Of a stretch of 64,000 nucleotides of DNA, positions 7,740 to 40,093 are shown piece by piece. The position numbers and the translations under genes were made by a program. Location: positions 5,609,501-5,673,500 of the forward strand of contig NZ_JAJLMN010000001.1 of the NCBI RefSeq assembly GCF_021730615.1, read 5' to 3'. This DNA comes from Lichenibacterium dinghuense. Its GTDB lineage: Bacteria; Pseudomonadota; Alphaproteobacteria; Rhizobiales; Beijerinckiaceae. Positions within the stretch are counted from its first letter, which is position 1. Each line of letters starts with the position of its first letter. Below the pieces are notes generated by a model. It was not told the origin of the DNA and made no database searches. It was given only the letters and a program-made list of their open reading frames with translations.

Positions 7740-7757
7740 CATGACGAGGATCGCCGC

Positions 7758-9065: not shown

Positions 9066-9751
9066 TGGCCTCCGCTCCGGCCCTGACGCTCGCGGGCGTC
9101 GTCCGCACCTACCGGCAGGGCGAGGCGACGCTCTCCATCCTGCGCGGCGCCGACCTCACGCTCTGGCCCGGCCAGTCGGTGGCCCTGGTAGCGCCGTCGG
9201 GCGCCGGCAAGTCGACGCTGCTCCACGTGGCCGGCCTGCTGGAGAAGCCGGACGGCGGCGAGGTCTACGTCGGGTCGTCCCCGACGGCCGGCATGGGCGA
9301 CCCTGAGCGCACCGCGCTGCGCCGCACGGCCATCGGCTTCGTGTACCAGGCCCATCACCTCCTGCCCGAGTTCACCGCGCTCGAGAACGTGGTGATGCCG
9401 CAGATGATCGCGGGCCTGTCGAAGCGCGAGGCGGCCGAGCGGGGCAGGGAGTTGCTGTCCTTCCTCGGGCTCGGGCAGCGCACCGGCCACCGTCCGGCGG
9501 AACTGTCGGGCGGCGAACAGCAGCGCGTCGCCATCGCGCGCGCGGTGGCCAACGCGCCCGGCATGCTGCTGGCCGACGAACCCACGGGCAACCTCGACCC
9601 CCACACGGCCGACCACGTCTTCGCGACGCTCACGTCGCTGATCCGCGCCACCGGGCTCGCCGCCCTGATCGCAACCCACAACATGGACCTCGCGGCGCGC
9701 ATGGACCGGCGCGTGACGCTGCACGAGGGGCTCGTGGTCGAGCTCGACTGA
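9062..9751 (+). CDS. lolD: Lipoprotein-releasing ABC transporter ATP-binding protein
   Basis: The ATPase of the lipoprotein-release transporter. The 229 residues show a Walker A motif APSGAGKST, the ABC signature [14 protein letters not shown] and Walker [13 protein letters not shown]. The start at ATG 9062 overlaps the lolC stop as ATGA; a second ATG follows directly at 9065. The tight coupling with the permease supports the LolCD assignment over a generic MacB-type exporter. Confidence 0.95.
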
Positions 9752-10012
9752 GGTGCCGCGCACGGCTCGACGGTCCGACCTTGAGCTGTGCCGTAATTAG
9801 ACCTCATTCTGAGGGCGTTTCCGGGGCGGGCAGGGGGCCCGCGCGGTCGCGCGCCGGGCCCGCTTAAGCCGATCGAAAGCAGCGGGGCGGAAAATGCGGT
9901 GCATGAGCAGTCCGGCCCGCCCGCCGCGGCGCGCATCGTCCTTCGCGGGGCGGGCGTGTGAGGCGGGACGCGGCCGGGGCGTCTGCGTCCGAGTCGGGTC
10001 CCGCAACGAACC

Positions 10013-11080
10013 ATGAAGCTTCCGGCCGTCGCGCTCCCGCTCCCCGTCGCCCCCGCCCGCCCCCTAGCGCTCGCCGATGTTCTGCGCTGGAGCGCCCTCG
10101 CGGCCTGCGCGGCGGTGCTGGCGGGCTGCGCCAGCCAGACCGCCGTCGGGCCCGGCCGACCGGGCCCGGGCGGCCGCTACTTCGATCCCATCCTCGGCGT
10201 GTGGGCGAGCCCGCGCGTCGTCGACGACGGCGAAGCGGTGCCGCGCGGCGGCGGCGGCTTCCTCGTCGGGCGGCCCTACACGATCGGCGGCCACCTCTAC
10301 GTGCCGAACGCCGATCCGCGCGGCTACGTGGCGGTCGGCACCGCGTCCTGGTACGGCGACGCCTTCCACGGCCGCCGCACCGCCAACGGCGAGATCTTCG
10401 ACAAGGGATCGATCTCGGCCGCGCATCCCACGCTGCCGCTGCCGAGCTACGTCCGCGTCACCAACCTCAAGAACGGCCGCTCGCTGATCGTGCGCGTCAA
10501 CGACCGCGGCCCCTACCACGGCGGCCGCGTGATGGACGTGTCGCAGCGCGTCGCCGAGGCCCTCGCGTTCCGCAACGAGGGGACGGGGCGCGTCCGCATC
10601 GAATATGTCGGCCGCGCCACGCTCGCGGGCGACGACGACGAGCGCTTGCTCGCCACCCTGACCACCGACGGGCGTCCCGCGCGGCTCGACGGCGTCGCCG
10701 AGCCCGTCCAGGTGGCCGATGCCGCGCTGCCGCCGCGGCCGACCGGCCCCTCGCCGCTGCCCAATTTCCCGGCGCGGGTGGCCTCGCTGCCGATCTTCCG
10801 GCGCGGCCCCCCGGCGGAAGGCCCGGTCCCGGCCGCACCGCCGGTCGAGCCCGTCGCGGCGCCGGCGCCGCCCCGCGCGACGCGCGCCCTCGCGGCTCCG
10901 GTCGAAGCCTCGCCGCGCCGTGCCGCGCCGGCCCGCACCGGCCCGGTCCCGCGCGATCCCTTCTTCAAGCCCCTGTTCCCGCCGCCGAAGCGCGAAGCCG
11001 CGCCGCGGGCCACCATCAGCTTCGGCGGGCCGGCGCGACGCCCCGTGCCGCCGAGGCGGAGTCCGGACGAGGCGCGCTGA
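10013..11080 (+). CDS. rlpA: RlpA-family septal lytic transglycosylase, lipoprotein
   Basis: A 355-residue envelope lipoprotein of the RlpA family, which cleaves glycan strands lacking stem peptides at the division site. The N-terminus has a hydrophobic segment ending in a lipobox, LAGC, near residue 42. The double-psi beta-barrel domain is clear: GTASWYGDAFHGRRTANGE and VRVNDRGPYHGGRVMDVS, carrying the expected catalytic Glu and Asp. The C-terminal 130 residues are a Pro/Ala/Arg-rich, probably disordered tail in which I see no SPOR domain. A 260-base gap precedes it, and a carboxypeptidase gene follows, giving a small peptidoglycan locus. Confidence 0.92.
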   Translation: MKLPAVALPLPVAPARPLALADVLRWSALAACAAVLAGCASQTAVGPGRPGPGGRYFDPILGVWASPRVVDDGEAVPRGGGGFLVGRPYTIGGHLYVPNADPRGYVAVGTASWYGDAFHGRRTANGEIFDKGSISAAHPTLPLPSYVRVTNLKNGRSLIVRVNDRGPYHGGRVMDVSQRVAEALAFRNEGTGRVRIEYVGRATLAGDDDERLLATLTTDGRPARLDGVAEPVQVADAALPPRPTGPSPLPNFPARVASLPIFRRGPPAEGPVPAAPPVEPVAAPAPPRATRALAAPVEASPRRAAPARTGPVPRDPFFKPLFPPPKREAAPRATISFGGPARRPVPPRRSPDEAR

Positions 11081-11169
11081 TCGGCGCATCGGCGCGCTTT
11101 GGCGGGCGCCGCACCCGCGGTACGATCCACCGCGCCCTCCCGCCCCGCAGCGAGTCCCCCGTGCCCAAG

Positions 11170-12408
11170 ATGCCAAAGCGCAAGCTGCTCTACGCCCTGC
11201 TCCTGTGCTGTGCCGCCCTGCCGGCGCGCGCGGCCGAGTCGTTCCAGACCATCGCGCCCTTCGCGCTGCTGGTGGACGCCGAGACCGGCTCCGTCCTGTT
11301 CGACCGCAACGCCGACAAGCAGATGGCGCCGGCCTCGACCACGAAGATCCTCACCGCCGAGATCGTCTTCCGCGAGATCAGGGAGGGGCGCCTCAAGCTC
11401 GACGACACGTTCCTCGTGTCCGAGAACGCGTGGCGCTCGGGCGGCGCCAAGTCGGGCGGCTCGACCATGTTCGCGGCCCTGAACAGCCGCATCCCGGTCG
11501 TGGACCTCATCCAGGGGCTCGTGGTGCAGTCCGGCAACGACGCCGCCATCGCGCTCGCGGAGGGCATCTCGGGCTCGGAGGACAGCTTCGCCGCCCTGAT
11601 GAACCGCCGGGCGCGCGAGATCGGCATGGCGCATTCCGAGTTCCAGAACCCGTGGGGCAGGGGGGACCCCGGCCAGCGGGTGACGCCGCGCGACATGGCG
11701 ACCCTGGCCCGCTACGTCATCCACACCTACCCGGAGTTCTACCGCTACTTCGGCGAGCGCGAGTTCACCTGGAACAAGGTGCGCCAGCTCAACCGCAACC
11801 CGCTGCTCGCCATGAACATCGGCGCGGACGGTCTGAAGACCGGCGACATCGCGGAAAGCGGCTACGGCCTCGTCGGCTCGGCCGTGCAGGACGGCGAGCG
11901 CCTGATCGTCGTGGTCAACGGCCTGCGCACCGCCAAGGACCGCGCGGCCGAGAGCTTCAAGCTGCTGAGCTGGGGCTTCCGCAATTTCGAGGCGCGCGAG
12001 CTCTACGCCGCCGGCGAGCCGGTGGGCAGCGCCAAGGTGTTCGGCGGCGACGCGTCCTCGGTGCCGCTCGTCGCCGCCGGTCCGGTCAAGCTGCTGGTGC
12101 CGCGCGGCTCCGGCGACGCGCTGGCGGGCCGCATCACCTACAGCGGGCCCCTGCAGGCGCCGGTCGCCGCGGGCGCCTTGGTGGCGGAGCTGCACGTGAC
12201 CCGCGACGGTTCGGACGTGCTCACGGTGCCGCTGAAGACGGCCTCGGCCGTCGGCGTGGGCTCGCTGCCGCGCCGCGCCCTCGACGCCGGCTGGGAGCTC
12301 GGCGCGACGCTGATCCGCCGCAACTTCGGGCGCCCGCCGGCCCAGGCGGCCGAGGCCGCGAGGGTGGGACCGACGGCGGATGCCGCGAAGGGGAGCAAGG
12401 CGCCGTGA
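11170..12408 (+). CDS. D-alanyl-D-alanine carboxypeptidase (PBP5/6 type)
   Basis: A periplasmic low-molecular-weight penicillin-binding protein that trims the terminal D-Ala of peptidoglycan stem peptides. The 412 residues begin with a signal peptide (MPKRKLLYALLLCC... ending ARA). The three active-site motifs are present: S-T-T-K in ASTTKIL, S-G-N in QSGNDAA and K-T-G in GLKTGD. A C-terminal beta-rich domain follows. ATG 11170 is used; an in-frame GTG at 11161 would add three residues. The stop overlaps the tmk start (GTGA), linking this envelope gene to a nucleotide and replication cluster. Confidence 0.93.
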   Translation: MPKRKLLYALLLCCAALPARAAESFQTIAPFALLVDAETGSVLFDRNADKQMAPASTTKILTAEIVFREIREGRLKLDDTFLVSENAWRSGGAKSGGSTMFAALNSRIPVVDLIQGLVVQSGNDAAIALAEGISGSEDSFAALMNRRAREIGMAHSEFQNPWGRGDPGQRVTPRDMATLARYVIHTYPEFYRYFGEREFTWNKVRQLNRNPLLAMNIGADGLKTGDIAESGYGLVGSAVQDGERLIVVVNGLRTAKDRAAESFKLLSWGFRNFEARELYAAGEPVGSAKVFGGDASSVPLVAAGPVKLLVPRGSGDALAGRITYSGPLQAPVAAGALVAELHVTRDGSDVLTVPLKTASAVGVGSLPRRALDAGWELGATLIRRNFGRPPAQAAEAARVGPTADAAKGSKAP

Positions 12409-13076
12409 CGGCGGGGCAGGGCAGTTTCATCACGCTCGAAGGCGGGGAGGGCACCGGCAAGTCGACCCAGGCGCGCCGCCTCGTGGACCGCATCGCCGCG
12501 CTCGGCCTCGACGCGGTGGCGACCCGCGAGCCCGGCGGCTCGCCCCGCGCGGAAGCGATCCGCGACGCGCTCCTGTCGGGCGCGATCAAGCCGCTCGGCC
12601 CGGTCGCGGAGGCGCTGATGTTCGCCGCCGCCCGCATCGACCACCTCGACGCGACGATCCGGCCGGCCCTCGCGCGCGGCGCCTTCGTGGTCTGCGACCG
12701 CTTCATCGATTCGACGCGCGTCTACCAGGGCGCGCTGGAGGGCGTCGACCCGGCGCTGCTCGCCGGGCTCGAGCGCGTCGCCGTCGGCGCCACGGTGCCG
12801 GACCTGACGCTGGTGCTCGACCTCGACGTCGCGACCGGCCTCGCGCGCGCCCGGTCGCGGCGCGGCGGCGCCGCGGCGGACCGGTTCGAGCGCGAGGCGG
12901 AGGGATTCCACGAGGGCCTGCGCCGCGCCTTCCTGGCGAATGCCGAGCAGGAGCCGGAGCGCTGCCTCGTGGTCGACGCGTCGGGCGAGGCCGACGCCGT
13001 GGCCGACACGCTGTGGCTCATCGTGCGGGCGCGCTTTCCCGCGCTGCGGCGGGCCGGGCAGGGGACGCGGCCGTGA
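12405..13076 (+). CDS. tmk: Thymidylate kinase
   Basis: Phosphorylates dTMP to dTDP. The 223 residues open with the P-loop ITLEGGEGTGKSTQA. The DR(F/Y) substrate motif is seen in VVCDRFIDSTRVYQG, and a LID-like Arg-rich segment follows near residue 145. The start is GTG 12405, chosen because it overlaps the previous stop by four bases and places the P-loop at residue 12. The stop overlaps the holB start in the same way (GTGA at 13073-13076). Confidence 0.96.
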   Translation: MTAGQGSFITLEGGEGTGKSTQARRLVDRIAALGLDAVATREPGGSPRAEAIRDALLSGAIKPLGPVAEALMFAAARIDHLDATIRPALARGAFVVCDRFIDSTRVYQGALEGVDPALLAGLERVAVGATVPDLTLVLDLDVATGLARARSRRGGAAADRFEREAEGFHEGLRRAFLANAEQEPERCLVVDASGEADAVADTLWLIVRARFPALRRAGQGTRP

Positions 13077-14131
13077 GGGAGGGCGAGGCCGCGCCCGAGA
13101 GCGACCGCGCCGAGGGCGCACCGCACCCGCGCGAGACGGCGGTGCTGTTCGGCCAGGCGCGGGCCGAGCGCGAGCTCCTCGACGCCTATCGGGCCGGGCG
13201 GCTCCACCACGCCTGGCTGATCGGCGGCGCGCCGGGCACCGGCAAGGCGACGCTGGCCTGGCGGTTCGCCCGCTTCCTCATGGCCCACCCGGACCCGGAC
13301 GACGACGCGGTCCGCGCCGCCGCCGACCTGTCGGTGCCGCCTGACCATCCCGCGGCGCGGCGGGTCGCCGGCGGCGCGCCGGGCGACGTCGCGGTGCTGC
13401 GGCGCGCCTGGAACGACAAGACCGGGAAATTCTTCTCGGAGATCCGCGTCGACGAGGTGCGCCGCATGTCCGGCCTGTTCCAGCAGGCGAGCCGGGCAGG
13501 GGGCTACCGCATCTGCATCATCGACACGGCCGAGGACCTCAACACCAACAGCGCCAACGCGCTCCTCAAGCTGATTGAGGAGCCGCCCTCGCGCTCGCTG
13601 TTCCTGCTGCTGGCGCACCATCCCGCCCAGGCGCTGCCGACGCTGCGCTCGCGCTGCCGCAAGCTCGCCCTCGACCCGCTCGCGCCCGCGGACGCCGCGG
13701 CGGCGCTCCGCGCGCTGGGGCGGCCCTGGTCGGAGACCGAGCCCGCCGCGCTCGACGAGGCCCTGCGCCGGGCCGGCGGCTCGGTCTCGGGCGCCCTGCC
13801 CTATCTCGGCGGCGAGCGGCTGATCCTCGACCGCGAGACGGCGCGCCTGCTCGCGCGCCTGCCAGAGGTCGACTGGGCCGGGCTGCACCGCCTCGCCGAC
13901 AAGGTCGGCTCGGACGAGGACGACTTCGCGGTGCTGACCGGCGCGATCCTCGACTGGCTCCACGGCCGGCTCGGGGCCGGCGCGACCGAGCCGCGCCGCC
14001 TTGCACCCCTGGCCGAGGTATGGGAGAAAGTGCGCCGCTCCGCGCGCGACACGCTGGCGCTCAACCTCGACAAGAAGACCTTTCTGTTCTCGACCTTCGC
14101 GGATCTCGCCCAGGCGACGCGCGCGCTTTGA
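13073..14131 (+). CDS. holB: DNA polymerase III delta-prime subunit
   Basis: Clamp-loader subunit of the replicative polymerase. The 352 residues contain a P-loop-like [13 protein letters not shown], the clamp-loader block [20 protein letters not shown] and the SRC motif in [10 protein letters not shown] see no four-cysteine zinc module. The GTG start overlaps tmk. The tmk-holB-metG-tatD-MBL order is common in this bacterial group and supports the call. Confidence 0.94.
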
Positions 14132-14148
14132 TCCCAAGAAGAGGCTTC

Positions 14149-15702
14149 ATGGCCCCGCGCCCGACCTACTGCATCTCCTCCGCCATCCCCTACGCCAACG
14201 GCGCCCCGCACATCGGCCACGCCTACGAGCGCATCGCCCAGGACGCTTTCGCGCGGTTCAAGCGGCTCGACGGCTTCGACGTGCTGAGCCTGTCCGGCAT
14301 GGACGAGCACGGGCAGAAGATGCAGCAGACGGCCGCGCGCGAGGGCCTGACGCCTCAGGGGCTCGCCGACCGCACGGCCGCGCAGTTCCTCGCCATGAAC
14401 CGGCTGCTCGGCACCGAGGCCGACGACGTTGTGCGCACCACCGAGCCGCGCCACCGCGCGGCCGCGCAGGAGATCTGGCGGCGCATGGAGGCGCGCGGCG
14501 ACGTCTACCTGTCGAGCTACGAGGGCTGGTACTCGGTCCGCGACGAGGCCTTCCACGACGAGGCCGACCTCGTCGACGGGCCGGACGGCACGCGCCTCGC
14601 GCCCACGGGCACGCCGGTCGAGTGGGTCGCCGAGGAGAGCTGGTTCTTCCGCCTGTCGGCCTACGGCGACCGGCTGCTCGCCCATTACGCCGCCCACCCC
14701 GACTTCGTCGTGCCGGACAAGTACTTCAACGAGGTCCGCTCCTTCGTGTCGCGCGGCCTCAAGGACCTGTCGATCAGCCGCACGGCCTTCGACTGGGGCG
14801 TGCCGGTGCCGGGCGACCCGAAGCACGTCATGTACGTGTGGGTCGACGCGCTGACCAACTACCTGACCGGGACCGGCTTCCCGGACGCCGCGGACCCGCG
14901 CGGACGATTCTGGCCGGCCGACGCGCACGTGATCGGCAAGGACATCTCGCGCTTCCACGCCGTGTTCTGGCCCGCCTTCCTGATGTCGGCCGGGCTGCCG
15001 CTGCCGCGCCGGATCGTGGTGCACGGCTTCCTGTTCAACAAGGGCGAGAAGATGTCGAAGTCCGTCGGCAACGTCATCTCGCCGGCGACCCTGGCCGAGC
15101 ATTACGGCGTCGACCCGCTGCGCTACTTCTTCCTGCGCGAGGTGCCGTTCGGCCAGGACGGCAGCTACTCGCACGAGGCCATCGTGGCGCGCATCAACGC
15201 CGACCTCGCCAACGGCATCGGCAATCTCGCGCAGCGCTCGCTGTCCATGATCGCCAAGAACTGCGGGGGCAGGGTGCCGGAGCGCGGCGACCTGAGCGAG
15301 GCCGACCAGGCCCTCCTGGCCGAGGCCGACGCCCTCCTCCCGCAGGCGCGGGACGCCATGGACCGCCACGCCCCGCACGACTACCTCGCCGCCGCATGGC
15401 GCGTGATCGCCTCGGCGGACCGCTACTTCGCGGGCGAGGAGCCCTGGGTGAAGCGCAAGACCGACCCGGCCCGCATGGCGACCGTGCTGGCCGTGGTGGC
15501 CGAGGTGGTGCGCGAGCTCGCCATCCTGCTCCAGCCCGCCATGCCGGGCGCGATGGCGCGGCTGCTCGACTTCCTCGCCGTGCCGGCCGACGCCCGCGAC
15601 TTCGCCCACCTCGAGGCCGACCACCGCCTGGCGTCCGGCACCGCCCTGCCCGCGCCCTCCGGCGTGTTCCCCCGCTACGTCGAGGCGGAGCCGGCCGCGT
15701 GA
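14149..15702 (+). CDS. metG: Methionyl-tRNA synthetase
   Basis: Charges tRNA-Met, needed for initiation and elongation. The 517 residues hold the class I motifs: PHIGHAY near residue 20 and KMSKSVGN near 302. The frame is open further upstream, but ATG 14149 is preceded by AAGAAGAGG and starts just before the conserved [14 protein letters not shown] see no CxxC zinc knuckle in the connective-peptide region and no C-terminal dimerisation domain, so this is the compact form. The stop overlaps the GTG of tatD. Confidence 0.96.
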
Positions 15703-16496
15703 ACCTGACCGATAGCCACTGCCACCTCGACTTCCCCGAGTTCTCGCCCGAGCTCGACGCCGTGGTGGAGCGCGCCCGCGCGGCGGGCGTGACGCGCATC
15801 ATCACGATCTCGACCCGCGTGGCCAGGCACGCCGACATCGCCGCGATCGCCGAGCGGTTCCCGGACGTGTTCTTCACGGTCGGCACCCATCCGCTCCAGG
15901 CGGGCGAGGAGCCGGACGTTCCGGTCGAGCGGCTGGTGGAGCTGTCGCGCCATCCGAAATGCGTCGGCATCGGCGAGGCCGGGCTCGACTACCACTACGA
16001 CGCCGCGCCGCGCGACGTGGCCGACCGCGTCTTTCGCACGCACATCCGGGCGGCGCGCGAGTCGGGCCTGCCGCTCGTGATCCACTCGCGCGACGCCGAC
16101 GCCGACATGGCCGCGACCCTCGAGGACGAGATGGCCCGCGGGCGCTTCGAGGCGGTGCTGCACTGCTTCACCTCGTCGATGGAGCTGGCGCGGACCGGGC
16201 TGGAGCTCGGCCTCTTCGTCTCCTTCTCGGGCGTCGCGACCTTCAAGAACTCGGAAGCCCTGCGCGACGTCGCGCGCACGGTGCCGCTCGACCGCATGCT
16301 GGTGGAGACCGACGCGCCCTTCCTCGCGCCGGTGCCGCACCGGGGCAAGCGCAACGAGCCGGCCTTCGTGGCCCAAACGGCGCGCGTCCTCGCCGAGGTG
16401 AAGGGCGTCGATCCGGAGACCTTCGCCGCGGCCACCAGCGCCAACGTGGACAGGCTCTTCTCCAAGCTGCCGGCTCGGCTCGGGGCGGCCGCGTGA
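15699..16496 (+). CDS. tatD: TatD-family metal-dependent hydrolase
   Basis: A 265-residue TIM-barrel hydrolase of the TatD family, generally a 3'-5' deoxyribonuclease with roles in DNA repair. Metal-binding positions are visible: DSHCHLDF at residue 5, GEAGLDYHY near 92, the HSRDAD segment, HCFTSS and VETDAPFL. The GTG start overlaps metG by four bases, and the stop overlaps the next GTG, so all three are probably translationally coupled. The exact substrate cannot be told. Confidence 0.93.
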
Positions 16497-17290
16497 CCGG
16501 CACACTCACGATCCTCGGCTGCGGCTCCTCCGGCGGCGTGCCGCGGGTGGGGCAGGGGTGGGGCGCCTGCGACCCCGCCGAGCCGAAGAACGAGCGCCAG
16601 CGCTGCTCGGTGCTGCTGGAGCGGCGCGGCGGCGCCGGCACCACGCGCGTGCTGGTCGACACGGGCCCGGACCTGCGCCGGCAACTCTTAGCCCACGCTG
16701 TGCCGTCGCTCGACGCGATCGTGCTGACCCACGCCCACGCCGATCACGTGCACGGCATCGACGACGTGCGGCCGCTGGTGCTCGGCGCCCAGCGGCGCAT
16801 CGCCGCCTACATGGACGCGCCGACCTCGCGCGATGTGGCGGGCAAGTTCGGCTACATCTTCCACACGCCGCCCGGCAGCTCCTACCCGCCGTTGCTCGAC
16901 GAGCACCGCCTCGTGCCCGGGTGCCCGCAGGCCTTCGACGGGGCAGGGGGGACGATCGAGGTGACGCCGTTCCGCCTGGAGCACGGCGAGATCGACGCGC
17001 TGGGACTGCGCGTCGGCGGCATCGCCTACACGCCGGACCTGAACGGCATCCCGCGCGAGAGCGAGCGCTTCCTCGACGCCCTCGACCTCTGGATCATCGA
17101 CGCGCTGCGCTACAAGCCGCATCCGAGCCACTTCTCGCTCGACGAGGCCTTGGCCGCCATCCGCCGTTTCCGTCCCAAGCGCGCCGTGCTCACCAACCTC
17201 CACAACGACCTCGACTATGCCACGCTCCGCGCCGACCTGCCGGACGGCGTGGTGCCGGCCTATGACGGGATGGCGCTGCCGTTCGACTGA
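16493..17290 (+). CDS. MBL-fold metallohydrolase (PhnP-like)
   Basis: A 265-residue metallo-beta-lactamase-fold phosphodiesterase. The metal motif THAHADHVHGIDD is present, with a downstream HPSHFS and other conserved His positions. The N-terminal GCGSSGGVPR is typical of the PhnP/RNase Z-like branch that cleaves cyclic phosphate or phosphodiester bonds. No phosphonate genes are nearby, so a PhnP role is only a family guess. This is the last gene of the plus-strand run before the dif region. Confidence 0.88.
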   Translation: MTGTLTILGCGSSGGVPRVGQGWGACDPAEPKNERQRCSVLLERRGGAGTTRVLVDTGPDLRRQLLAHAVPSLDAIVLTHAHADHVHGIDDVRPLVLGAQRRIAAYMDAPTSRDVAGKFGYIFHTPPGSSYPPLLDEHRLVPGCPQAFDGAGGTIEVTPFRLEHGEIDALGLRVGGIAYTPDLNGIPRESERFLDALDLWIIDALRYKPHPSHFSLDEALAAIRRFRPKRAVLTNLHNDLDYATLRADLPDGVVPAYDGMALPFD

Positions 17291-18599
17291 CCGGCTGATC
17301 GCCGGGCAGGGAGGATGGTCGACCGCCCTGCCCTCGTCCGACGTGGCGCCCCGCGTTGCCATGGCGGCGCCGAGCGAAGGACGCCCTCTGTCCTGGACGC
17401 AGGAGGTTCGAGCCGAGCGGAGCGCGTCGTCGGCGTAGCGCTCGGCGCGAGGAGACCAGCACGCAAGGCCGAGCATCTCCGCCGTCGGTGTCTCGACCCC
17501 GATCGAGGCCTGATCGCCGATGTGCACCCGTCAAGGGCGGATCGGCAAGGGGGCCGAAAAGCGGTAGCCGATCAGGGCGTGGGATCCGTCGAGCCGAGGA
17601 TTTTGGTCCTCCGAGGCTGGTGTCCGTCGCACCACAGGGGCGCCGCGAAGCGAGCGGTGCACCGCATCGAAGTCACTCGGTCGTCGACATCGAGCCGCAC
17701 CGGAGGCATGGGCTCGGGGCAGGGCGTGTCTGGCAGGGTCGAAACCTCGAAGGCCGGGCCGCCCCTGCCCTAGCTGGAGTTCGCCCTCGGGCGGCTCCGC
17801 GGCGGATCGACCGTTGCGACGGTGACGCGATCGAAAGGTCGACCTGCGAAGGTCGCTCCGCACCGCCGAGAATCCGGCGGGCTGGGCTGAACCGACCCGC
17901 AACAGCGATACGAGAGTGTGACCAGGGGCTTGGCTCCGCCCCGAGGTGGACCGTGTACGTTCCATAATATAGATTATGCGAATATTTCGCTCTTCGGCGC
18001 CTGAACCGATCTTCCGTCTCTGGCACCGTACTCGTCGTCGCGCGTCTCCGCTCGAGCGCTTTCGGCCACCCTTCCGATGGTCGAACACAGGCCCGCTGGA
18101 CTCCTGCCGACGCGACATCGCTGATGCCGCTCGTCCGTGGCTCAGATCCGGGTCGAGACCGGCCACCCTATCCACTTCCAGCTCAGCAACGGCGCTCGCG
18201 GCCGGGGCCGCCGCTCCGTCGTCCTGATCCCGCCGTGCTCAGAAAAGGCGCGGTTTCGCCCCGGAATAGCGGTGGCGAACGGGCGAAAAATGCGTTAGCG
18301 TTCGGTCAAGACGTGGGCTCCGCAGGTCCCCTCCCGCGTCGTCATCGGCTCCCGAAGGGGAACGGAGCTGCGATGGTTGGTTGCGCCGCCGTCGTCGCTG
18401 AAAGGTGTAGGCGCACGCCAAGGCGGGGTCGCTTTGGCCGGGTTTCGTGAAGACAATGCCCAGCCACGGTTGTACGCTGAGGGCCCGCGAGAGCGATCGT
18501 CGCGGGATTGTGAGACGTGACCATCGAGGGCGCGACATCGGGTCTGCGGTCCGGTCACGGTGTGGGCGGTTGGGTTGAAGGCAAAGACGAGCTGGCGAC
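17291..18599. other. Low-coding terminus region containing the dif-like site
   Basis: About 1.3 kb between the MBL gene and the cold-shock gene. The open frames here overlap each other on both strands and have shuffled Arg/Ser/Gly-rich products with no recognisable motif. It holds the dif-like site at 17957-17984, two GGGCAGGG octamers (17304, 17717) and two inverted copies (17326, 17763). The 17304/17326 pair can form a hairpin with an 8-base stem just after the MBL gene. Base composition is locally less GC-rich around 17955-17995. The last few hundred bases are probably promoter and leader of the cold-shock gene, but I cannot place a promoter confidently. Confidence 0.7.
17957..17984 (-). 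other. dif-like XerC/XerD chromosome dimer resolution site
   Basis: On the minus strand the site reads as an 11-base arm ending CGCATAA, a 6-base centre TCTATA, and an 11-base arm beginning TTATGGAA. E. coli dif has CGCATAA, TGTATA and TTATG at the same positions. By hand count 20 of 28 bases match: 8 of 11 in the XerC-type arm, 5 of 6 in the centre, 7 of 11 in the XerD-type arm. The inner arms CATAA/TTATG form the expected imperfect palindrome. The site sits in a gene-free, locally AT-rich patch and exactly where GGGCAGGG polarity switches. Assignment of which arm binds XerC is inferred from the E. coli alignment. Confidence 0.87.
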
Positions 18600-19271
18600 A
18601 TGAGCAAAGGTAGAGATTTCCGGGGACCGAGGAAGCGGGGCTTCGACGACGACATGCCGTCGTCCCCCTATGAGTCCCGCCCGTCGCGGCCGCCTTCGCG
18701 CCCCTTCGGCAGCGGCGCCCCGAGCGGCTTCGGCGGCGGCGGCGGTGACATGATGTCCGCCCCCCCGGCCGGTCCCACCGTCGATGCCGTCGTCAAGTGG
18801 TTCAAGGCCGACAAGGGCTTCGGCTTCGTCGAGCTGCAGAACGGCCAGGGCGACGCCTTCCTTCACATCGGCGCGATCCAGTCGGCCGGCTACGAGACGG
18901 TGCCCCCGGGCGCCAAGCTCAAGGTCCTGGTCGGCAACGGCGCCAAGGGTGCCCAGGTGACCCGCGTCGTCGAGGTCGACACGACGGGTGCCCAGGAGCG
19001 CGCGCCGCAGCGCTCGTTCGACAGCCCGCGCCCCGCCCGCCGCGCCCCCGATCCGTCGACCGCGGTGTCGGTGTCCGGCAAGGTGAAGTGGTTCGACGAC
19101 ACCAAGGGCTTCGGCTTCGTGTCGAGCAACGATGGCGGCAAGGACATCTTCGTCCACATCTCCATCCTCGGCCCGGCCGGCCTGTCCCACCTCGCGGAGG
19201 GCCAGCCCGTCTCGATGCGCGTCGTCGACACCCCGAAGGGCCGCGAAGCCCTTTCGATCTCGGCCGACTGA
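18600..19271 (+). CDS. Double cold-shock-domain protein
   Basis: A 223-residue RNA/DNA-binding protein with two cold-shock domains, at about residues 62-128 and 157-222. Each has RNP1-like KGFGFV and an RNP2-like motif (DAFLHI and DIFVHI). The first 60 residues are an Arg/Pro/Ser/Gly-rich, probably disordered tail with a run of glycines, and a second Pro/Arg-rich linker joins the domains. Two-domain cold-shock proteins are typical of alphaproteobacteria and serve as RNA chaperones or growth and stress regulators. The ATG at 18600 follows GACGAGCTGGCGAC. A strong terminator follows at 19310. Regulation by a structured leader is possible but not shown. Confidence 0.93.
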   Translation: MSKGRDFRGPRKRGFDDDMPSSPYESRPSRPPSRPFGSGAPSGFGGGGGDMMSAPPAGPTVDAVVKWFKADKGFGFVELQNGQGDAFLHIGAIQSAGYETVPPGAKLKVLVGNGAKGAQVTRVVEVDTTGAQERAPQRSFDSPRPARRAPDPSTAVSVSGKVKWFDDTKGFGFVSSNDGGKDIFVHISILGPAGLSHLAEGQPVSMRVVDTPKGREALSISAD

Positions 19272-19339: not shown

Positions 19340-19360
19340 CGCGTGTGAACGAGAGTGCCC

Positions 19361-20173
19361 ATGACGCCGTCCCGCGACATAGCCCGCCTGATCGAGATCA
19401 TGGCGGCGCTGCGCCACCCGGAGACGGGTTGCTCCTGGGACTTGGCGCAGAGCTTCGCTAGCGTGGCGCCCTACGCCGTCGAGGAAGCCTACGAGGTGGC
19501 GGACGCCGTCGAGCGCGGCGACCGCGAGGACTTGCGCGAGGAACTGGGCGACCTGTTGCTCCAGGTCGTGTTCCAGGCCCGCATCGCCGAGGAGGAAGGC
19601 AGCTTCGACTTCGGCGGCGTCGTCGAGGCCATCACGGCCAAGCTGGTGCGCCGTCACCCGCACATCTTCGGCGACCGGCGCGACCTCACGCCCGCCGAGG
19701 TGAAGGCCGCCTGGGGCCGGATCAAGGCCGAGGAGAAGGCCGAGCGCGAGTGCCGCGCTGGACCGGGGCAGGGCGCACCGGGGCTGCTGAGCCGCGTCGG
19801 GACCGGCATCGCCCCCCTGCCCCGCGCCGTGAAGCTCCAGCGCGTCGCCGGCACGGTCGGCTTCGATTGGAACGACACCCGCGCGGTGCTCGAGAAGATC
19901 CGCGAGGAGGCCGACGAGGTCGAAGCCGCGCTCGGCGACCGCACGGCCGTCGCGGACGAGATCGGCGACCTGCTCTTCGCCGTGGCCAACCTCGCGCGGC
20001 ACGCGGGCGTCGACCCCGAAGTCGCGCTGCACGGCGCGAATCGCAAGTTCGAGCGGCGCTTCGGCCACATCGAGCGGTCACTGGCCTCGCGCGGGTCGAG
20101 CCTGCAGGAGGCCGACCTCGACGCCATGGAGGCGCTGTGGACCGAGGCGAAAGCGCTGGAACGGCAGGCCTGA
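19361..20173 (+). CDS. mazG: Nucleoside triphosphate pyrophosphohydrolase MazG
   Basis: Hydrolyses (d)NTPs to monophosphates, cleaning aberrant nucleotides. The 270 residues contain two tandem MazG domains: VEEAYEVADAVE with REELGDLLLQVVF near residues 35-70, and REEADEVEAAL with ADEIGDLLFAVANL near residues 180-215. Both show the ExxE and ExxD metal positions. ATG 19361 is used; an in-frame GTG at 19355 is an alternative. It is the last plus-strand gene and converges on hflX across a 141-base gap. Confidence 0.95.
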   Translation: MTPSRDIARLIEIMAALRHPETGCSWDLAQSFASVAPYAVEEAYEVADAVERGDREDLREELGDLLLQVVFQARIAEEEGSFDFGGVVEAITAKLVRRHPHIFGDRRDLTPAEVKAAWGRIKAEEKAERECRAGPGQGAPGLLSRVGTGIAPLPRAVKLQRVAGTVGFDWNDTRAVLEKIREEADEVEAALGDRTAVADEIGDLLFAVANLARHAGVDPEVALHGANRKFERRFGHIERSLASRGSSLQEADLDAMEALWTEAKALERQA

Positions 20174-20314
20174 ACAGGTCCAGGGCAGGGCGCCCTTCGG
20201 CGCCGCCGCTCCGGCCTGGATTCTCGGTAGTCCGCACTCTGTCGTATTTGGAGGAGGCGCGAGAGCTGCCCTCGAGGGCTTCGCCCTGCCCCCGACGGGC
20301 TTGGGCAACCCGCC

Positions 20315-21688
20315 TCAGTGCGTCTCGGCCGGGACGCGCTCGGCCTGAGGGAAGCGGTTCTGCACCCGCTCCATGCGCTCCGGCGCCACGCGGACCGTGA
20401 GGTGGATCGTGCCGTCCTCGCCGTCCTGCCGGGCCAGGATCTCGGTGGTCTCGTAGAGCCAGTTCAGGCCGCGCCCGTCGCTCGGGTCGAGATCGACGTG
20501 GAGCGAGGTCGCGTGGGTGGCGAGCCGACGCTCCACCGTGGCGAGGAGGTCGTCGACCCCCTGCCCCGTCAGGGCCGACACCACCGCGGGCCGCTCGTCC
20601 GCACGCTTGTGCGCGGCAGCGTCGAGCGTCGCGGCGAGCCGGTCCTCGTCGAGCAGGTCGGCCTTGTTCCACACCTCGACCACGCGCTCGCGGTCTTCGG
20701 CGTCGACGCCGAGCTCGCGCAGGATCGCCAGCACGTCGGCGCTCTGCGCCTGCGTGTCCTCGTGGGCGACGTCGCGCACGTGCAGGATCACGTCGGCCGA
20801 CACGACCTCCTCCAGCGTCGCCCGAAAGGCGGAGACCAGCATGGTCGGGAGATCGGAAATGAAGCCCACCGTGTCGGACAGGATCACCTTGCCCCGGTGC
20901 GGCAACCGCACGACGCGCAGCGTCGGGTCCAGGGTGGCGAAGACCATGTCGTCGGCCAGCACGGCGGCCTTGGTCAGACGATTGAAGAGCGTGGACTTGC
21001 CGGCGTTGGTGTAGCCGACCAGCGCCACGGTCGGGAACGGCACGTCGACGCGCGTCTTCCGGTTGGTCGCGCGGGTCTGCTTCACGTGGTCGAGGTCCCG
21101 CTCGATCCGCGCCATCCGCTCCTCGATCAGGCGGCGGTCGGTCTCGATCTGCGTCTCGCCGGGCCCGCCGAGGAAGCCGAAGCCGCCGCGCTGGCGCTCC
21201 AGGTGTGTCCAGGATCGCACGAGGCGGGACTTTTGGTAGGCGAGGTGGGCCAGTTCCACCTGTAGCGTCCCCTCCTTGGTGCGCGCGCGCCGACCGAAGA
21301 TCTCCAGGATCAGGCCGGTGCGGTCGATCACCTTGGTGCCGAACGCCTTCTCGAGGTTGCGCTGCTGGACCGGCGACAGGGCGCAGTCCATCACCACGAG
21401 ACCGATCTCCAGTTCCTCGCAGACCTCCGCGAGTTCCTCGACCTTGCCCTTGCCGAGGTAGGTCGAGGGCCGCACGGCTCCGAGGTTGACGATGACGTCG
21501 CGGCGGACGTCGAGGTCGATGGCGTCGCCGAGCGCCACGGCCTCGCCGATGCGCGCCTCGGGCGAGCGCGCCTCGCGCGCGGCAGAGCCCCGCCCGGTCG
21601 GGTAGGGCCCGACCACCAGCGTGCGGGTGGCCTCGGCGGCGGTCTTCTCGACGGCGTCCGTGCCGTCGTCCCCGTGTTTCGACTTCAA
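20315..21688 (-). CDS. hflX: GTPase HflX
   Basis: A ribosome-associated GTPase that can split stalled or stress-inactivated ribosomes. The 457 residues show the HflX N-terminal domain, a glycine-rich linker followed by [14 protein letters not shown], and the GTPase motifs GYTNAGKST (G1), DTVGFI (G3) and NKADL (G4). It lies directly downstream of hfq on the minus strand, with 43 bases between, the usual hfq-hflX pairing. It is convergent with mazG. Confidence 0.96.
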
Positions 21689-21731
21689 TCGCGTGTCCCG
21701 ATGGCTCGTCCGATGCCGCCGGGGACCGCGC

Positions 21732-22019
21732 TCACCGCAGGCGTTCGGCGGCCGGGGCGGCGGCGGCCGCGGCGGCCGGCACGTCCTCGGGCGACTCGAA
21801 CATCTGGATGGGCTGTCCCGGCATCACGGTCGATATGGCGTGTTTGTAGACCAGTTGCGAGTGGCCGTCCCGGCGCAGGAGGACGCAGAAATTGTCGAAC
21901 CACGTCACCACACCCTGCAGCTTGACCCCGTTGACCAGGAAGATGGTGAGGGGGACCTTGTTCTTGCGCACGTAGTTGAGGAACGTGTCCTGCAGGTTCT
22001 GTGTTCGTTCAGCCGCCAT
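21732..22019 (-). CDS. hfq: RNA chaperone Hfq
   Basis: A hexameric Sm-like protein that pairs small RNAs with mRNAs. The 95 residues contain the Sm1 region ([19 protein letters not shown]), the Sm2 signature YKHAISTV, and a short alanine-rich tail. ATG 22019 is chosen because it gives the conserved [10 protein letters not shown] start and has an AGGA ribosome-binding sequence; a GTG at 22031 would add four residues. A promoter candidate lies at 22217-22246. Hfq in this group influences nitrogen control, and ntrX lies just upstream. Confidence 0.97.
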
Positions 22020-22216
22020 GGTCCTGTCCACTGCTCGTCGCCGCTTGTTCGCGGTCTCGATGCCGCGGCCTCGCCCCCGCGCGACGGATCCGTCCTCGGC
22101 CCGTCAAGGCGTCGTCCGGGCGTTCCCGCGGGTGAGGTCGCGCCCGCGCCCCGTCGCCCCGAGGGCGCGCCGCGCGGGCCGCCCGATCCGTCGCCGGGCC
22201 GCCTGCATCCCGCCGC

Positions 22217-22246
22217 ATTAGAGGCAGGAACAAGCAGAAGTCGCAA
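22217..22246 (-). promoter_or_regulatory. Candidate promoter for hfq-hflX
   Basis: On the minus strand TTGCGA (22241-22246), an 18-base spacer and TCTAAT (22217-22222) resemble a housekeeping promoter, with 4 of 6 and 5 of 6 consensus matches. The predicted start leaves a leader of about 190 bases before hfq. Pattern match only. Confidence 0.45.
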
Positions 22247-22272
22247 GCGGGATTTCCCTCGCGTCCCCCGGA

Positions 22273-23640
22273 TCAGTCGATGGCGAGGGACTTCAGCTTC
22301 CGATGCAGGGCCGAGCGCTCCATGCCGATGAACTCGGCCGTGCGCGAGATGTTGCCGCCGAAGCGGCTGATCTGGGCGACGAGGTACTCGCGCTCGAACA
22401 CCTCGCGGGCTTCGCGCAGCGGCAGGCTCATCAGCTTCTCGCCCCCTGCCCCGTTGGGCGTCGCCGGCACCAGCGCGCCGATCTCGGAGGGGAGCATGTC
22501 GGCGGTGATCTCGGCCTCGGGGTCTCCGGTCGCCAAGATCATCAGCCGCTCGACGTTGTTGCGGAGCTGCCGGATGTTGCCGGGCCAGTCGTGCGACTGC
22601 AGCACTGCCATGGCGTCCGCCCCGATCCGGCGCTTGGGCAGCCCGGTGTTGGCCGACACCTGATCCATGAAGAAGGCGACGAGCTCGGGGATGTCGTCGC
22701 GGCGCTCCGACAGCGCCGGCACCCGCACCGGCACCACGGCGAGGCGGTGGAACAGGTCCTCGCGGAAGTGGCCCTCCGCGATCAGCGCCGGCAGGTCGCG
22801 GGCGGTCGAGGAGATGATGCGGACGTCGACGTGGACGCGCGCCGTGCCGCCGACGCGCTGGAAGTTCTGGTCCACCAGGACGCGCAGGATGCGGCTCTGG
22901 GTTTCGCGGGGCATGTCCGCGACCTCGTCGATGAAGAGCGTGCCGCCGTGCGCCTCCTCCAGCGCGCCGACCTTGCGGCCGCGCCCGTCCGCCCCTTCGA
23001 CGCCGAACAGCTCCGTCTCCATGGCCTCGGGCAGCATGGTGGCGGCGTTGATGACCACGAAGGGGGAGGCCGCGCGGCTGGACCCGGCGTGCACCATGCG
23101 GGCTGCCAGCTCCTTGCCGGTGCCGGGCGCGCCCGCGATCAGCACGCGGGAGTTGGCCGGCCCGACCTTGTCGATCACCTGGCGGAGCTGGTTGGCGCTG
23201 GTCGAGCGGCCCACCACGCGGTCCGTCGTGAGCGAGCGCGTCTTCAGCTCGACGTTCTCGCGCCTCAGCCGCGACGTTTCGAGCGCCCGCTCGGCCACCA
23301 GAACCAGCCGGTCGGCCTTGAAGGGCTTCTCGATGAAGTCGTAGGCGCCCATCTTGATCGCGGAGACGGCCGTCTCGATGTTGCCGTGGCCCGAGATCAT
23401 CACCACCGGCAGCGTCGGGTGCTGCTCCTTGATGATCTCCAGCAGCTGCAGCCCGTCGAGACGCGAGCCCTGCAGCCAGATGTCCAGGAACATCAGGTGG
23501 GGCCGCCGCGCCGCGAGCAGGGCCAGGGCGTCGTCGGCGTCCTTGGCGACGCGCGTGCCGTGGCCCTCGTCCGACAGGATGCCGGAAACGATGTCGCGGA
23601 TGTCGGCTTCGTCGTCGACGATGAGGATATCCGTGGCCAT
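22273..23640 (-). CDS. ntrX: Response regulator NtrX, lacking the GAFTGA loop
   Basis: Response regulator of the NtrY/NtrX pair, involved in nitrogen, redox and envelope control. The 455 residues consist of a receiver domain (phospho-acceptor Asp53 in MFLDIWL), an AAA+ domain (Walker A AGAPGTGKE, Walker B GGTLFIDEV) and a C-terminal Fis-type helix-turn-helix (NISRTAEFIGMERSALHRKLK). The sigma-54-contacting GAFTGA loop is absent: the segment after ELFG reads VEGADGRGRKVGALEEA (residues 214-230). It therefore probably does not activate sigma-54 polymerase. Six bases separate it from ntrY upstream. Confidence 0.96.
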   Translation of the reverse strand: MATDILIVDDEADIRDIVSGILSDEGHGTRVAKDADDALALLAARRPHLMFLDIWLQGSRLDGLQLLEIIKEQHPTLPVVMISGHGNIETAVSAIKMGAYDFIEKPFKADRLVLVAERALETSRLRRENVELKTRSLTTDRVVGRSTSANQLRQVIDKVGPANSRVLIAGAPGTGKELAARMVHAGSSRAASPFVVINAATMLPEAMETELFGVEGADGRGRKVGALEEAHGGTLFIDEVADMPRETQSRILRVLVDQNFQRVGGTARVHVDVRIISSTARDLPALIAEGHFREDLFHRLAVVPVRVPALSERRDDIPELVAFFMDQVSANTGLPKRRIGADAMAVLQSHDWPGNIRQLRNNVERLMILATGDPEAEITADMLPSEIGALVPATPNGAGGEKLMSLPLREAREVFEREYLVAQISRFGGNISRTAEFIGMERSALHRKLKSLAID

Positions 23641-23646
23641 GGCGGG

Positions 23647-25923
23647 TCAGGCTTTCTCGGTGAGGGGGCCCGGCGCCGCGTCGACGCCGGTGGTGGCGTC
23701 GGCGCGGGCCGGCGCGTCGATGGGGAAATGCATCCGCACCCGGGCGCCGCGGCCGCCGGGCGCGTCGAGCAGTTCGATGCCGCCGCCGTGATCTTCCAGG
23801 ATCTTGGCCACGATGGCGAGGCCGAGCCCGGTGCCCTCGGCCCGCGTGGTCATATAGGGCTCCAGCAGGCGCTGGCGGTTCTCGGTCGGGAAGCCCTTGC
23901 CGTTGTCGACCACGTCGATGACGGCCTGCCCGTCGGGCGCGCGGTGGAGCGACACGGCGATCCGGCCCTGCTCCCGGTCCTCGGGCGGCAGGGTCGCCAT
24001 GTGGGCGGCCACGCCCTCGGTCGCGTTCTTGACGATGTTGGTCAGGGCCTGGCTGAGGAGCCGACGGTCGAAGCGGGCGATCAGCGGCGCCGAGGGCAGG
24101 TCCTCGTCGAGCACGACCTCCGGGTTGCCGACGCGCATCAGGAAGGCCACCTGCCCGAGGCATTTGGCGAGGTCGTCCTCGGCCAGCAGGGCCTTTGGCA
24201 TGCGGGCGAAGGACGAGAACTCGTCCACCATCCGCTTCATGTCGTCGACCTGGCGGATGATCGTGTCGGTGCACTGGTCGAAGACGTCGCGGCCCTCGGT
24301 GATGACCTTGCTGTAGCGCCGCTTCAGCCGCTCGGCGGAGAGCTGGATCGGCGTCAGCGGGTTCTTGATCTCGTGGGCGATGCGGCGCGCAACGTCGGCC
24401 CAGGCCGAGGTCCGCTGGGCTGACACGAGGTCGGTGATGTCGTCGAGCGTGACCACGGAGTTGCGCTCGGCTTTCCCGGACAGCTCGCTGGCCACGCGCA
24501 CGTTGAAGGTCCGCTCCCGGCCCGCGCGGGTCAGCGTCACCTGTCCCTGCTGGAGGCGGGGGCGGCCGCCGCGCTCCGCGAGGATCGGGCCGAGCTCCGG
24601 CACCGCCTCGCCGAGCGCCCGGCCCACCGCGGGCGTGCCTGCGGTTTCGACGAGCTTCTGCGCGGAAGCGTTCAGCACCGTCATGTCGCCCCTGGCGTCG
24701 ATGCCGATCACGGCCGCCGGCACGCCGGACAGCACCGCCTCGGTGAAGAGGCGGCGCGCGTCGATGGTTTCGCGCGCCGCGATCAGCCGGTTCTGCTGGA
24801 GCCGCAGGTCAGCGATCATCTTGTTGAAGGTTTCGCCGAGCCGCGCGAGGTCGCCTTCCGAGCGGCGGATCGGCACCTGGACGTAGAGGTTGCCGGAGGA
24901 CACCTGGTCGGTCGCGTCGATGAGGCGGCGGATCGGCGCCACCAGCAGGTTGGCGAAGGACAGCCCGAGCCAGATCGCCGACAGCAGCATGATGGCGGCG
25001 AGCAGGCCGAACATGACGATGAAGGCGAACTGGATCGACTGCCGGTAGTTGTCGAAGGTCGCGAAGGCGCGGGTGATCTCCTCGGCGTGCTGCTGGAAGC
25101 CGATGGTGAAGGGGTCGAGCGGCCGCGCGACGTAGAGGAAGCCGTTGTCGAAGCTCGGCAGGTAGCGCAGAGCCACGAAGGTGCGGGCGTTGTCGACATG
25201 GTAGCAGATCTGCTCGCCGCGGCGGACGCCTTCGAGCACCTCCGCGTTCGGTATGACCACTTGGGGCGGCTTGCCGGTGTCGACCTTCTCGACCACGGTC
25301 CCGCTCGGCGCCATGATCACGGCCGTGGTGAAGCCGAGCGACTGGACGCGCGAGTCGAAAAAGTTTTGGAAGAAGCTGCGGTTGCCGTAGCCGACCCGCG
25401 CGCGGGCGAGGTCGAGCGCCGCGAGATCCGCGTCGCGCTGCAGCGAGTCGCACTGCTTGGAGCGGATCAGCTTCCCGGCGTTCGTGGTCTCGCCGATGAA
25501 GCTGCCGACCTGATCCATGAACCCGGGGTAGAGGCCCCGCTCCAGCGCCACACCCCCGACGATGGCCATGATGACGCCCGGGACGAGCGCCGTGATGGTG
25601 AACAGGCCCACGATGTAGGCGTGCAGCCGCGCGCCCGCCTGCTTGGCCCGCCAAGCCGCGAGCAGCTTCCAAGCTTCCCGCGCCACCAGGGCGCAGAGCA
25701 CGAGGGCGATCAGCCCGTCCGCCACGAAGACGTCGAGCACCACCGGCCCCTTCGGGGGATCGGTCGGGATGGTGGAGGTGTAGCTCGTGAAGACCGCGAA
25801 GCTCGCGAGCGCCGCCACGAGCGAGAGGGCCACCACGATGGGCGCGATGCGCAGGTTGAACCGCCTGTCATCCCGCTTGATCGACGCGTGGTCGAGGCCG
25901 TCCCTGCCCGTCGATTCCGTCAA
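23647..25923 (-). CDS. ntrY: Sensor histidine kinase NtrY
   Basis: A membrane sensor kinase for NtrX. The 758 residues begin with three membrane segments in the first 130 residues, a periplasmic loop, another membrane segment near 305-330, a HAMP linker (PIRRLIDATDQVSSGNLYV), a PAS domain, the H-box [17 protein letters not shown] and an ATPase domain (N-box NIVKNATEGV, G-boxes DNGKGFP and GTGLGLAIV). This architecture is diagnostic of NtrY. The gap to ntrC (25924-26077) contains TATAAA on the minus strand at 26009-26014, a possible -10 box without a good -35. Confidence 0.96.
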   Translation of the reverse strand: MTESTGRDGLDHASIKRDDRRFNLRIAPIVVALSLVAALASFAVFTSYTSTIPTDPPKGPVVLDVFVADGLIALVLCALVAREAWKLLAAWRAKQAGARLHAYIVGLFTITALVPGVIMAIVGGVALERGLYPGFMDQVGSFIGETTNAGKLIRSKQCDSLQRDADLAALDLARARVGYGNRSFFQNFFDSRVQSLGFTTAVIMAPSGTVVEKVDTGKPPQVVIPNAEVLEGVRRGEQICYHVDNARTFVALRYLPSFDNGFLYVARPLDPFTIGFQQHAEEITRAFATFDNYRQSIQFAFIVMFGLLAAIMLLSAIWLGLSFANLLVAPIRRLIDATDQVSSGNLYVQVPIRRSEGDLARLGETFNKMIADLRLQQNRLIAARETIDARRLFTEAVLSGVPAAVIGIDARGDMTVLNASAQKLVETAGTPAVGRALGEAVPELGPILAERGGRPRLQQGQVTLTRAGRERTFNVRVASELSGKAERNSVVTLDDITDLVSAQRTSAWADVARRIAHEIKNPLTPIQLSAERLKRRYSKVITEGRDVFDQCTDTIIRQVDDMKRMVDEFSSFARMPKALLAEDDLAKCLGQVAFLMRVGNPEVVLDEDLPSAPLIARFDRRLLSQALTNIVKNATEGVAAHMATLPPEDREQGRIAVSLHRAPDGQAVIDVVDNGKGFPTENRQRLLEPYMTTRAEGTGLGLAIVAKILEDHGGGIELLDAPGGRGARVRMHFPIDAPARADATTGVDAAPGPLTEKA

Positions 25924-26077
25924 GCGCGTCCATCCATCGATCGGCCGTGCCGAGCGCTCTCGCCGCCCGTCCCCGCCGCGCTGCCGTGCCGGGCCGAGGC
26001 CCGTTGCATTTATACAGCACTGTTGCCGGATTGCAGCGAATTCAGGGCGCGAGGGCCCAGGCGGATCGGGACGGGGT

Positions 26078-27562
<1,485 letters not shown>

Positions 27563-27597
27563 CGCCGGTACTTCCCTTTACGCTGTGCGCCGCGAGC

Positions 27598-29810: not shown

Positions 29811-29885
29811 CGTGGTCCGGCACCCGGCGCGCCCGCGACCGCGGGAGGCGGTGCCGCTTCGCGCGCCAATCGAAGAACTGCTCAC

Positions 29886-29913
29886 ATCATAATCATCGGG
29901 CGCACGACGGCAA
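29886..29913 (-). promoter_or_regulatory. Candidate promoter for dusB-ntrBC
   Basis: On the minus strand TTGCCG (29908-29913), a 16-base spacer and TATGAT (29886-29891) give a housekeeping-type promoter, with 5 of 6 matches in the -10. It lies in the only gap of the minus-strand run upstream of dusB, leaving a leader of about 70 bases. Confidence 0.5.
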
Positions 29914-29947
29914 CTCCACCGATCCGCGGGGCAGATCCGACCATCGT

Positions 29948-30700: not shown

Positions 30701-30948
30701 CGCGGGCCCTTTCTGTCCGACGCCGCGCGCCGGTCGTTGCGGTGCGGATCGCGGCGCAGGGATGCGCGATCGGGGATTGTGGCGGACCGGATCGGGTCTG
30801 GATCCCGGTCGGGAGTCAAGGGCCTGCCTCGACTCAGGCAGCGGTGGACGAGAAGCGGCCGTCCCGGCCCGGGAGGCCCACCGCCGTTTGACGGCGCGGC
30901 CGAAAGGCTGGAGATAGAACCGCTTCAAAGAGGAGCCGCGACGGGTCT

Positions 30949-32148: not shown

Positions 32149-32151
32149 GCC

Positions 32152-40082: not shown

Positions 40083-40093
40083 TCGGACCCGCC

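Follow-up and report, generated by a model that had tools for sequence, protein, structure and literature searches.

Dif is the short site at which joined daughter chromosomes are separated at cell division, and the 64,000-nucleotide stretch of the Lichenibacterium dinghuense genome analysed here (the window, taken as a whole) raises the question of whether it carries this site, whether it spans the replication terminus, and whether relatives share the genes that stand around the site. A preliminary description had proposed a dif-like XerC/XerD site in a gene-free patch at a polarity switch of the window, and our results confirm such a site by the match of its arms, its uniqueness on the chromosome and the switch of KOPS orientation; this site (Table 1) is almost certainly the chromosomal dif of the L. 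dinghuense genome, marking the junction of the replichores. Indeed, two 11-bp arms enclose a 6-bp centre, with CATAA and TTATG as inner arm sequences, and alignment to E. coli dif reproduced the 20/28 identical positions counted before, with mismatches at positions 1, 2, 4, 13, 23, 24, 26 and 27, i.e., a single mismatch among positions 5-22, in line with the near-perfect inner positions first described. The attribution of the arms to XerC and XerD was set by this same alignment, and the E. coli centre is TGTATA vs TCTATA in the window. The patch is gene-free as claimed, since the site lies in the gap 17291-18599, between an MBL-fold ORF and a cold-shock gene, and the two ORFs that overlap it (one per strand) matched zero Pfam families at E 1e-5. 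Elsewhere, the window also holds an EcpR1 sRNA and a tRNA-Ser gene.

Table 1. Features of the window, with positions counted from its first nucleotide
Feature	Position	Strand	Sequence or basis
12 KOPS directed at dif, left of dif	7634..17724	plus	GGGCAGGG; 4 opposed in same stretch
12 KOPS directed at dif, right of dif	19815..60227	minus	GGGCAGGG; 3 opposed right of dif: 19766, 20183, 54161
Convergent KOPS pairs	17304-17333, 17717-17770, 19766-19822, 20183-20291		GGGCAGGG/CCCTGCCC
dif site, 28 bp	17957..17984	minus	TATTCGCATAATCTATATTATGGAACGT
XerC-side arm of dif	17974..17984	minus	TATTCGCATAA
dif central region	17968..17973	minus	TCTATA
XerD-side arm of dif	17957..17967	minus	TTATGGAACGT
DNA polymerase III delta-prime ORF (holB)	12380..14131	plus	Pfam PF13177, residues 259-434; true start probably further in than 12380
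Methionyl-tRNA synthetase (metG)	14020..15702	plus	Pfam PF09334
265-aa ORF	15699..16496	plus	Open reading frame; presumed TatD-like from its N-terminal sequence
MBL-fold hydrolase ORF, left dif neighbour	15959..17290	plus	Pfam PF12706, residues 229-412
Cold-shock protein (two CSD stretches), right dif neighbour	18600..19271	plus	Pfam PF00313
MazG nucleotide pyrophosphohydrolase	19355..20173	plus	Pfam PF03819
HflX GTPase	20315..21688	minus	Pfam PF16360, PF13167, PF19275
Sigma-54-dependent response regulator	22273..23640	minus	Pfam PF00158, PF00072; taken to be NtrX-like
tRNA-Ser (GCT)	46326-46419	plus	
EcpR1 (Atu_C6) sRNA	60669-60777	minus	Rfam, 102 bits

With the arms fixed and the centre left free, the site is the sole zero-mismatch match in the window, and the 6.1-Mb genome holds only two such exact-arm matches, one on the 5.86-Mb chromosome C1 (C1:5,627,463-5,627,480) and one on the replicon C4 (C4:104,537-104,554). 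The genome-wide pattern search found zero exact-arm matches on C2, C3 and C5; the expectation of one copy per replicon therefore stands for C1 and C4 and not for these three, and the window site has no second exact-arm copy on its own replicon. That the match is no more than an AT-rich palindrome formed by chance is practically inconceivable: with as many as two mismatches allowed, arm patterns are indeed common (42 in the genome, the two exact ones included, vs 29 for the reversed control), but only 0.03 exact-arm matches per genome are expected from base composition, whereas the two observed lie one on each of two replicons, both at a KOPS convergence, and the exact 23-mer is present in 26 other contigs.

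The polarity of KOPS provides the main evidence for the terminus. The motif GGGCAGGG occurs 31 times in the window vs 5.0 expected, and its local switch is not clean, with 12 plus and 4 minus on the left of dif and 12 minus and 3 plus on the right, two of these last three falling within 2.3 kb of dif; the change from plus to minus is best placed within 17.0-20.5 kb of the window, a stretch over which the optimum is flat and which includes dif. For the chromosome, the window was read completely and the remainder was sampled (1,263,500 bases of C1, i.e., 21.6%, with 192 motifs), and a two-break fit sought the terminus in 5.3-5.86 Mb and the origin in 1.8-3.6 Mb only, on grids of 2 kb and 20 kb, respectively. 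The best fit places the terminus at 5.628-5.630 Mb and the origin at 2.42 Mb, explains 162/192 motifs (30/192 opposing it) and predicts replichores of about 3.2 and 2.65 Mb. By arm, we counted 50 plus and 5 minus at 2.55-5.60 Mb, and 10 plus and 60 minus from 5.66 Mb round to 2.3 Mb. In addition, in 40 evenly spread stretches that span the whole of C1 in 150-kb steps, plus dominates from ~2.85 to 5.57 Mb and minus from 5.70 Mb round to 2.1 Mb. Closer to the window, there are 13 plus and 0 minus on its left (five stretches, 5.45-5.61 Mb) and 2 plus and 12 minus on its right (two stretches, 5.67-5.72 Mb), while at 5.76-5.86 Mb the polarity is invisible because three stretches hold 2 plus and 1 minus. 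Thus, the polarity switch first claimed for this site appears clearly in the sampled KOPS, though locally it is not clean, and the claim that the window spans the replication terminus is supported by KOPS convergence at dif in the 21.6% of C1 sampled. A terminus away from dif was considered and rejected, since the KOPS read on both strands of the C1 stretches converge on dif. GC skew is too weak to mark the terminus in this genome and gives no significant support for dif: its value differs between the sampled arms by 0.005, with the sign expected (permutation p = 0.20, 40 stretches), and in the 18 kb left of dif it is negative, opposite to expectation. KOPS polarity shows the terminus in a genome where GC skew fails, and dif fixes its position.

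This location also bears on the idea that a Xer-exploiting mobile element uses the site for attachment, or that the site is an integrated plasmid-type XerCD site, and not a native dif. Such an origin, which we regard as extremely unlikely, could be argued from the other dif-like site, carried by the 158-kb repABC replicon C4, and from three relatives (G074, G100 and G140) in which a single contig bears two exact sites that differ in their centres; yet C1 has no other exact-arm site, the window site lies at the KOPS switch, the housekeeping synteny around it is common to relatives, and an integrase or prophage gene was found in 0/10 nearby ORFs tested with Pfam.

The genome encodes proteins resembling those that would act at a native dif. 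Two of its 20 tyrosine-recombinase matches were scored against the NCBIfam Xer models: the XerD-like protein reached 317.8 bits as XerD (TIGR02225) vs 253.7 as XerC, and the XerC-like protein 293.9 bits as XerC (TIGR02224) vs 213.3 as XerD, both scores being under the NCBIfam equivalog cut-offs (329.6 and 335.15). FtsK-gamma (PF09397) gave 2 genome matches above cut-off. By analogy with known Xer biology, from which binding, strand exchange and FtsK dependence at this site are predicted, XerC and XerD would bind the two 11-bp arms, septal FtsK would load on GGGCAGGG and pump both chromosome arms towards dif, and its contact at dif would activate strand exchange over the 6-bp centre, by XerD first and by XerC next, so that the chromosome dimer would be resolved into two monomers.

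The site is conserved well beyond this genome. When one mismatch was allowed, the dif pattern matched in 146/149 family genomes and the reversed control in 32/149, a sign that this loose pattern picks up chance sites too. Unaltered, the 23-mer is present in 26 named contigs; Kiloniella is among them, but most carry the name of Rhizobiales, Hyphomicrobiales or one of the families in that order. The closest is Lichenibacterium minor (L115), in which six flanking proteins are 82-98% identical. In a profile of 51 sites, all picked because their arms are exact and roughly half because they carry the complete 23-mer, conservation reaches 3 bases upstream and ~10 bases downstream from the 18-bp core; farther out it is near background, except for a weak A at -10 (61%). 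The block of ~28 bp conserved among relatives corresponds to the dif footprint.

Dif as such is an ordinary, known kind of site, and its shared address is the part that a specialist may not expect. In the window, dif stands between holB-metG-MBL hydrolase and mazG-hflX-ntrX (12380-23640). Searches in the order and the class allowed no mismatch to a pattern with a terminal AA, a demand that the window genome itself fails (GAAC), and the dif sites found in at least 38/120 genomes of the order and at least 46/115 of the class are therefore lower bounds. All address counts below are tallies over loci. With flanks of ~1.5 kb, at least one of the seven flanking proteins was found at 17/24 family loci that hold an exact-arm site (another 6 hold none and are not counted), 17/30 order loci and 16/30 class loci, and with flanks of up to 8 kb at 21/26 named loci. 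Side and strand were as in the window at all such loci except L121 and L179, the only match of the latter being a discordant HflX. In L121, dif (127-149) is inverted relative to MBL-metG-holB, the sole such exception among the 26 named loci, which reflects either a local inversion or an assembly error of the MAG.

For the wider class, 40 of 47 places were taken with flanks of up to 10 kb (leaving out G364 twice, G368, G351, G349, G370 and G353), giving 40 loci (L230-L269) outside this order and from 38 families. HolB was found at 25 of these loci, MetG at 21, the MBL hydrolase at 25, MazG at 26, HflX at 18, NtrX at 16 and the cold-shock protein Csp at 0, vs 11/26 named loci for the last. Side and strand agreed with the window for HolB (25/25), MBL (25/25), MazG (26/26), HflX (18/18), MetG (20/21) and NtrX (14/16), and match midpoints lay 0.4-7.4 kb from dif for MBL and 0.4-8.5 kb for mazG. 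Expected neighbours stood on both sides at 22 loci and on one side at 10 (32/40 with at least one), and at neither side in 8 (L230, L237, L243, L248, L253, L254, L264 and L266). As controls, proteins encoded at 35 and 57 kb in the window matched at 0 and 1 of the 40 loci; those from 26 and 61 kb matched at 17 and 7, which we take to be paralogue or near-cluster matches, and are not clean controls. In the 32 loci with neighbours, 97 GGGCAGGG motifs point towards dif and 4 away.

The address was also approached from the side of mazG, in 67 genomes of the class that lack the strict dif motif. MazG was detected at E 1e-20 in 38/67, with one match each, i.e., as a single-copy gene in these searches, and a dif profile was scanned around mazG in 37 genomes, keeping the two best matches per locus and using mononucleotide shuffles for comparison. 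A diverged dif upstream of mazG scored above all 47 shuffled loci (maximum 21.0) in 19/37 genomes, lying 34 to 2402 bases upstream of the mazG match, with the window-like strand the better one in 19/19. The remaining 18/37 gave no score above the shuffles, with upstream DNA of at most 1.5 kb in 10 of them and 2.4-14.6 kb in 8; where the upstream DNA exceeded 1.5 kb (16 genomes), such a site was seen in 8 and not seen in 8. Note that a random point in a 3.5-Mb genome would fall within 10 kb of a single-copy mazG in ~0.6% of cases, by simple arithmetic.

Dif and its two flanking gene groups thus look inherited together through much of Alphaproteobacteria, with clear exceptions. We consider it rather likely that the dif locus is a vertically inherited landmark of fixed orientation, in which the junction holB-metG-MBL / dif / mazG-hflX-ntrX goes back to an ancestor of much of the class and has since survived in most cases because inversions and translocations near dif upset the register between KOPS and FtsK. 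An inversion with one breakpoint beside dif would flip a KOPS-rich stretch of one arm, and breaks within a few kb of dif would put KOPS polarity out of register with FtsK; this architectural mechanism fits the reported observation that inversions are rarer and smaller towards the terminus (PMC5993296). We infer both the ancestry of the address and its selective upkeep by KOPS polarity. It is also possible, if on the doubtful side, that each gene group is a conserved operon and that dif is a passive rider in the gap between them, the architecture of the terminus exerting no selection. Indeed, the gene runs holB-metG and hflX-ntrX are seen at many loci, which would be enough to keep each side intact, and dif and the gene groups do separate, given the 8 class loci without neighbours, where KOPS still point 12 to 0 towards the site, and six mazG genomes in which the ~14 kb scanned upstream hold no dif-like site. 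From the same 12 to 0 count, several of the 8 neighbour-free sites may be true dif at other addresses or on other replicons. Passive riding nevertheless leaves unexplained why the two groups lie on opposite sides of dif, with variable gaps and a fixed side and strand, and E. coli MG1655, in which 0/11 query proteins were found in the 20 kb around dif, also counts against it.

The terminus is usually regarded as fluid, and if the ancestral and selected address is true, the core of the terminus would rank with the chromosome's more stable regions, and mazG would in many cases lead to dif. The shared address then offers an independent way to seek dif in draft alphaproteobacterial genomes, and makes testable whether KOPS, FtsK and dif slow the loss of gene order beside dif. 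According to the main text of Carnoy & Roten 2009 (PMC2731167), the genes flanking 161 dif sites include mobility genes and unknown ORFs, and the terminus, dif especially, facilitates DNA mobility (section 8); a neighbourhood common to families would be a useful counterweight to this mobility view. The word 'mazG' is absent from that main text (supplements apart), and no published report of a linkage between dif and these neighbours was found in the titles and abstract openings among the matches listed, a scope that leaves aside supplements and most subscription papers.

Beside the chromosome, the 158-kb repABC replicon C4 carries a dif of its own (104537-104554, L002) with the centre TATAAA. 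Its repA, a match far above cut-off, is at 109.9 kb, and the orientation of 20/22 C4 KOPS agrees with a dif at 104.5 kb when the origin is placed at repA, as the fit assumes; since this dif is ~5 kb from repA, the two C4 arms would be very unequal. The 60 family genomes in which the loose pattern matched twice or more were searched again; 59 of them gave 108 exact dif sites, 33 genomes having two or more, and identical centres within a genome were found in 0/71 pairs without G037 and in 1/72 with it, its second copy lying at a contig end. Replicon-specific centres were rejected as an exclusion rule, because random dealing of the centres over these genomes expects 0.87 identical pairs (P = 0.41), and with fewer than one coincidence expected by chance, an avoidance of shared centres cannot be shown; the idea as such has already been published (PMC2533119). 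Two exact dif sites with different centres stand on each of the contigs G074:C2, G074:C3, G100:C203 and G140:C2, which are possibly fused replicons.

In the window, four convergent GGGCAGGG/CCCTGCCC pairs, forming inverted repeats, are found no farther than 2.5 kb from dif. Of the 26 named loci, L115 has three such pairs and L099, L107, L113 and L118 have one each; the 40 loci of the class have zero, and no pair closer than 150 bp turned up in the 40 stretches of C1.

On the origin side of C1, the KOPS switch from minus to plus at about 2.411-2.416 Mb. A search of the sampled C1 stretches with a parS consensus (up to 3 mismatches) gave 6 parS-like sites, 4 of which fall at 2.405-2.419 Mb, close to rho, mnmG, rsmG and a ParB gene. 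A dense KOPS cluster extends over 2.389-2.448 Mb (L150, L023, L151 and L152), with its divergence point amid the four parS-like sites and 17 motifs in 20 kb at 2.40-2.42 Mb vs a genome mean of ~3 per 20 kb (852 in 6.1 Mb). The best DnaA match, at 474 kb, is away from this switch. An AT-rich gap with one DnaA box (C1 2.3872-2.3879 Mb) was tried as oriC and rejected, and no exact oriC is named, since the KOPS switch and the four parS-like sites lie 18-32 kb beyond this gap.

Altogether, these observations can be set beside the known dif and KOPS systems. Dif of XerCD-FtsK systems has been surveyed before (Carnoy & Roten 2009, PMC2731167; Kono et al. 2011, PMC3025954), and the Agrobacterium tumefaciens dif listed in Table 1 of the former shares both inner arms and the outer GGAAC with the window dif, whereas the centres differ (TCTATA here, GATATA in Agrobacterium). 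KOPS are known as GGGNAGGG, and Vibrio cholerae FtsK is reported to recognise GGGCAGGG (PMC2533119); the KOPS of L. dinghuense have the same motif and the same polarity from origin to dif but, unlike those known, are dense at the origin as well as the terminus. The same source describes divergent dif centres on non-homologous chromosomes (dif1/dif2 of V. cholerae), and KOPS switching at dif is described for large extrachromosomal replicons (PMC13342612) and enterobacterial megaplasmids (PMC11724359). Like these replicon-specific systems as described there, C4 has its own dif, another centre and KOPS polarity to match; unlike them, it is only 158 kb in size and its dif stands ~5 kb from repA. 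Finally, the L. dinghuense chromosome resembles the E. coli dif/XerCD-FtsK system in its 28-bp two-arm site with a 6-bp centre, intergenic, present once per chromosome and placed at the terminus, and in a genome that encodes XerC-like, XerD-like and FtsK-gamma proteins.
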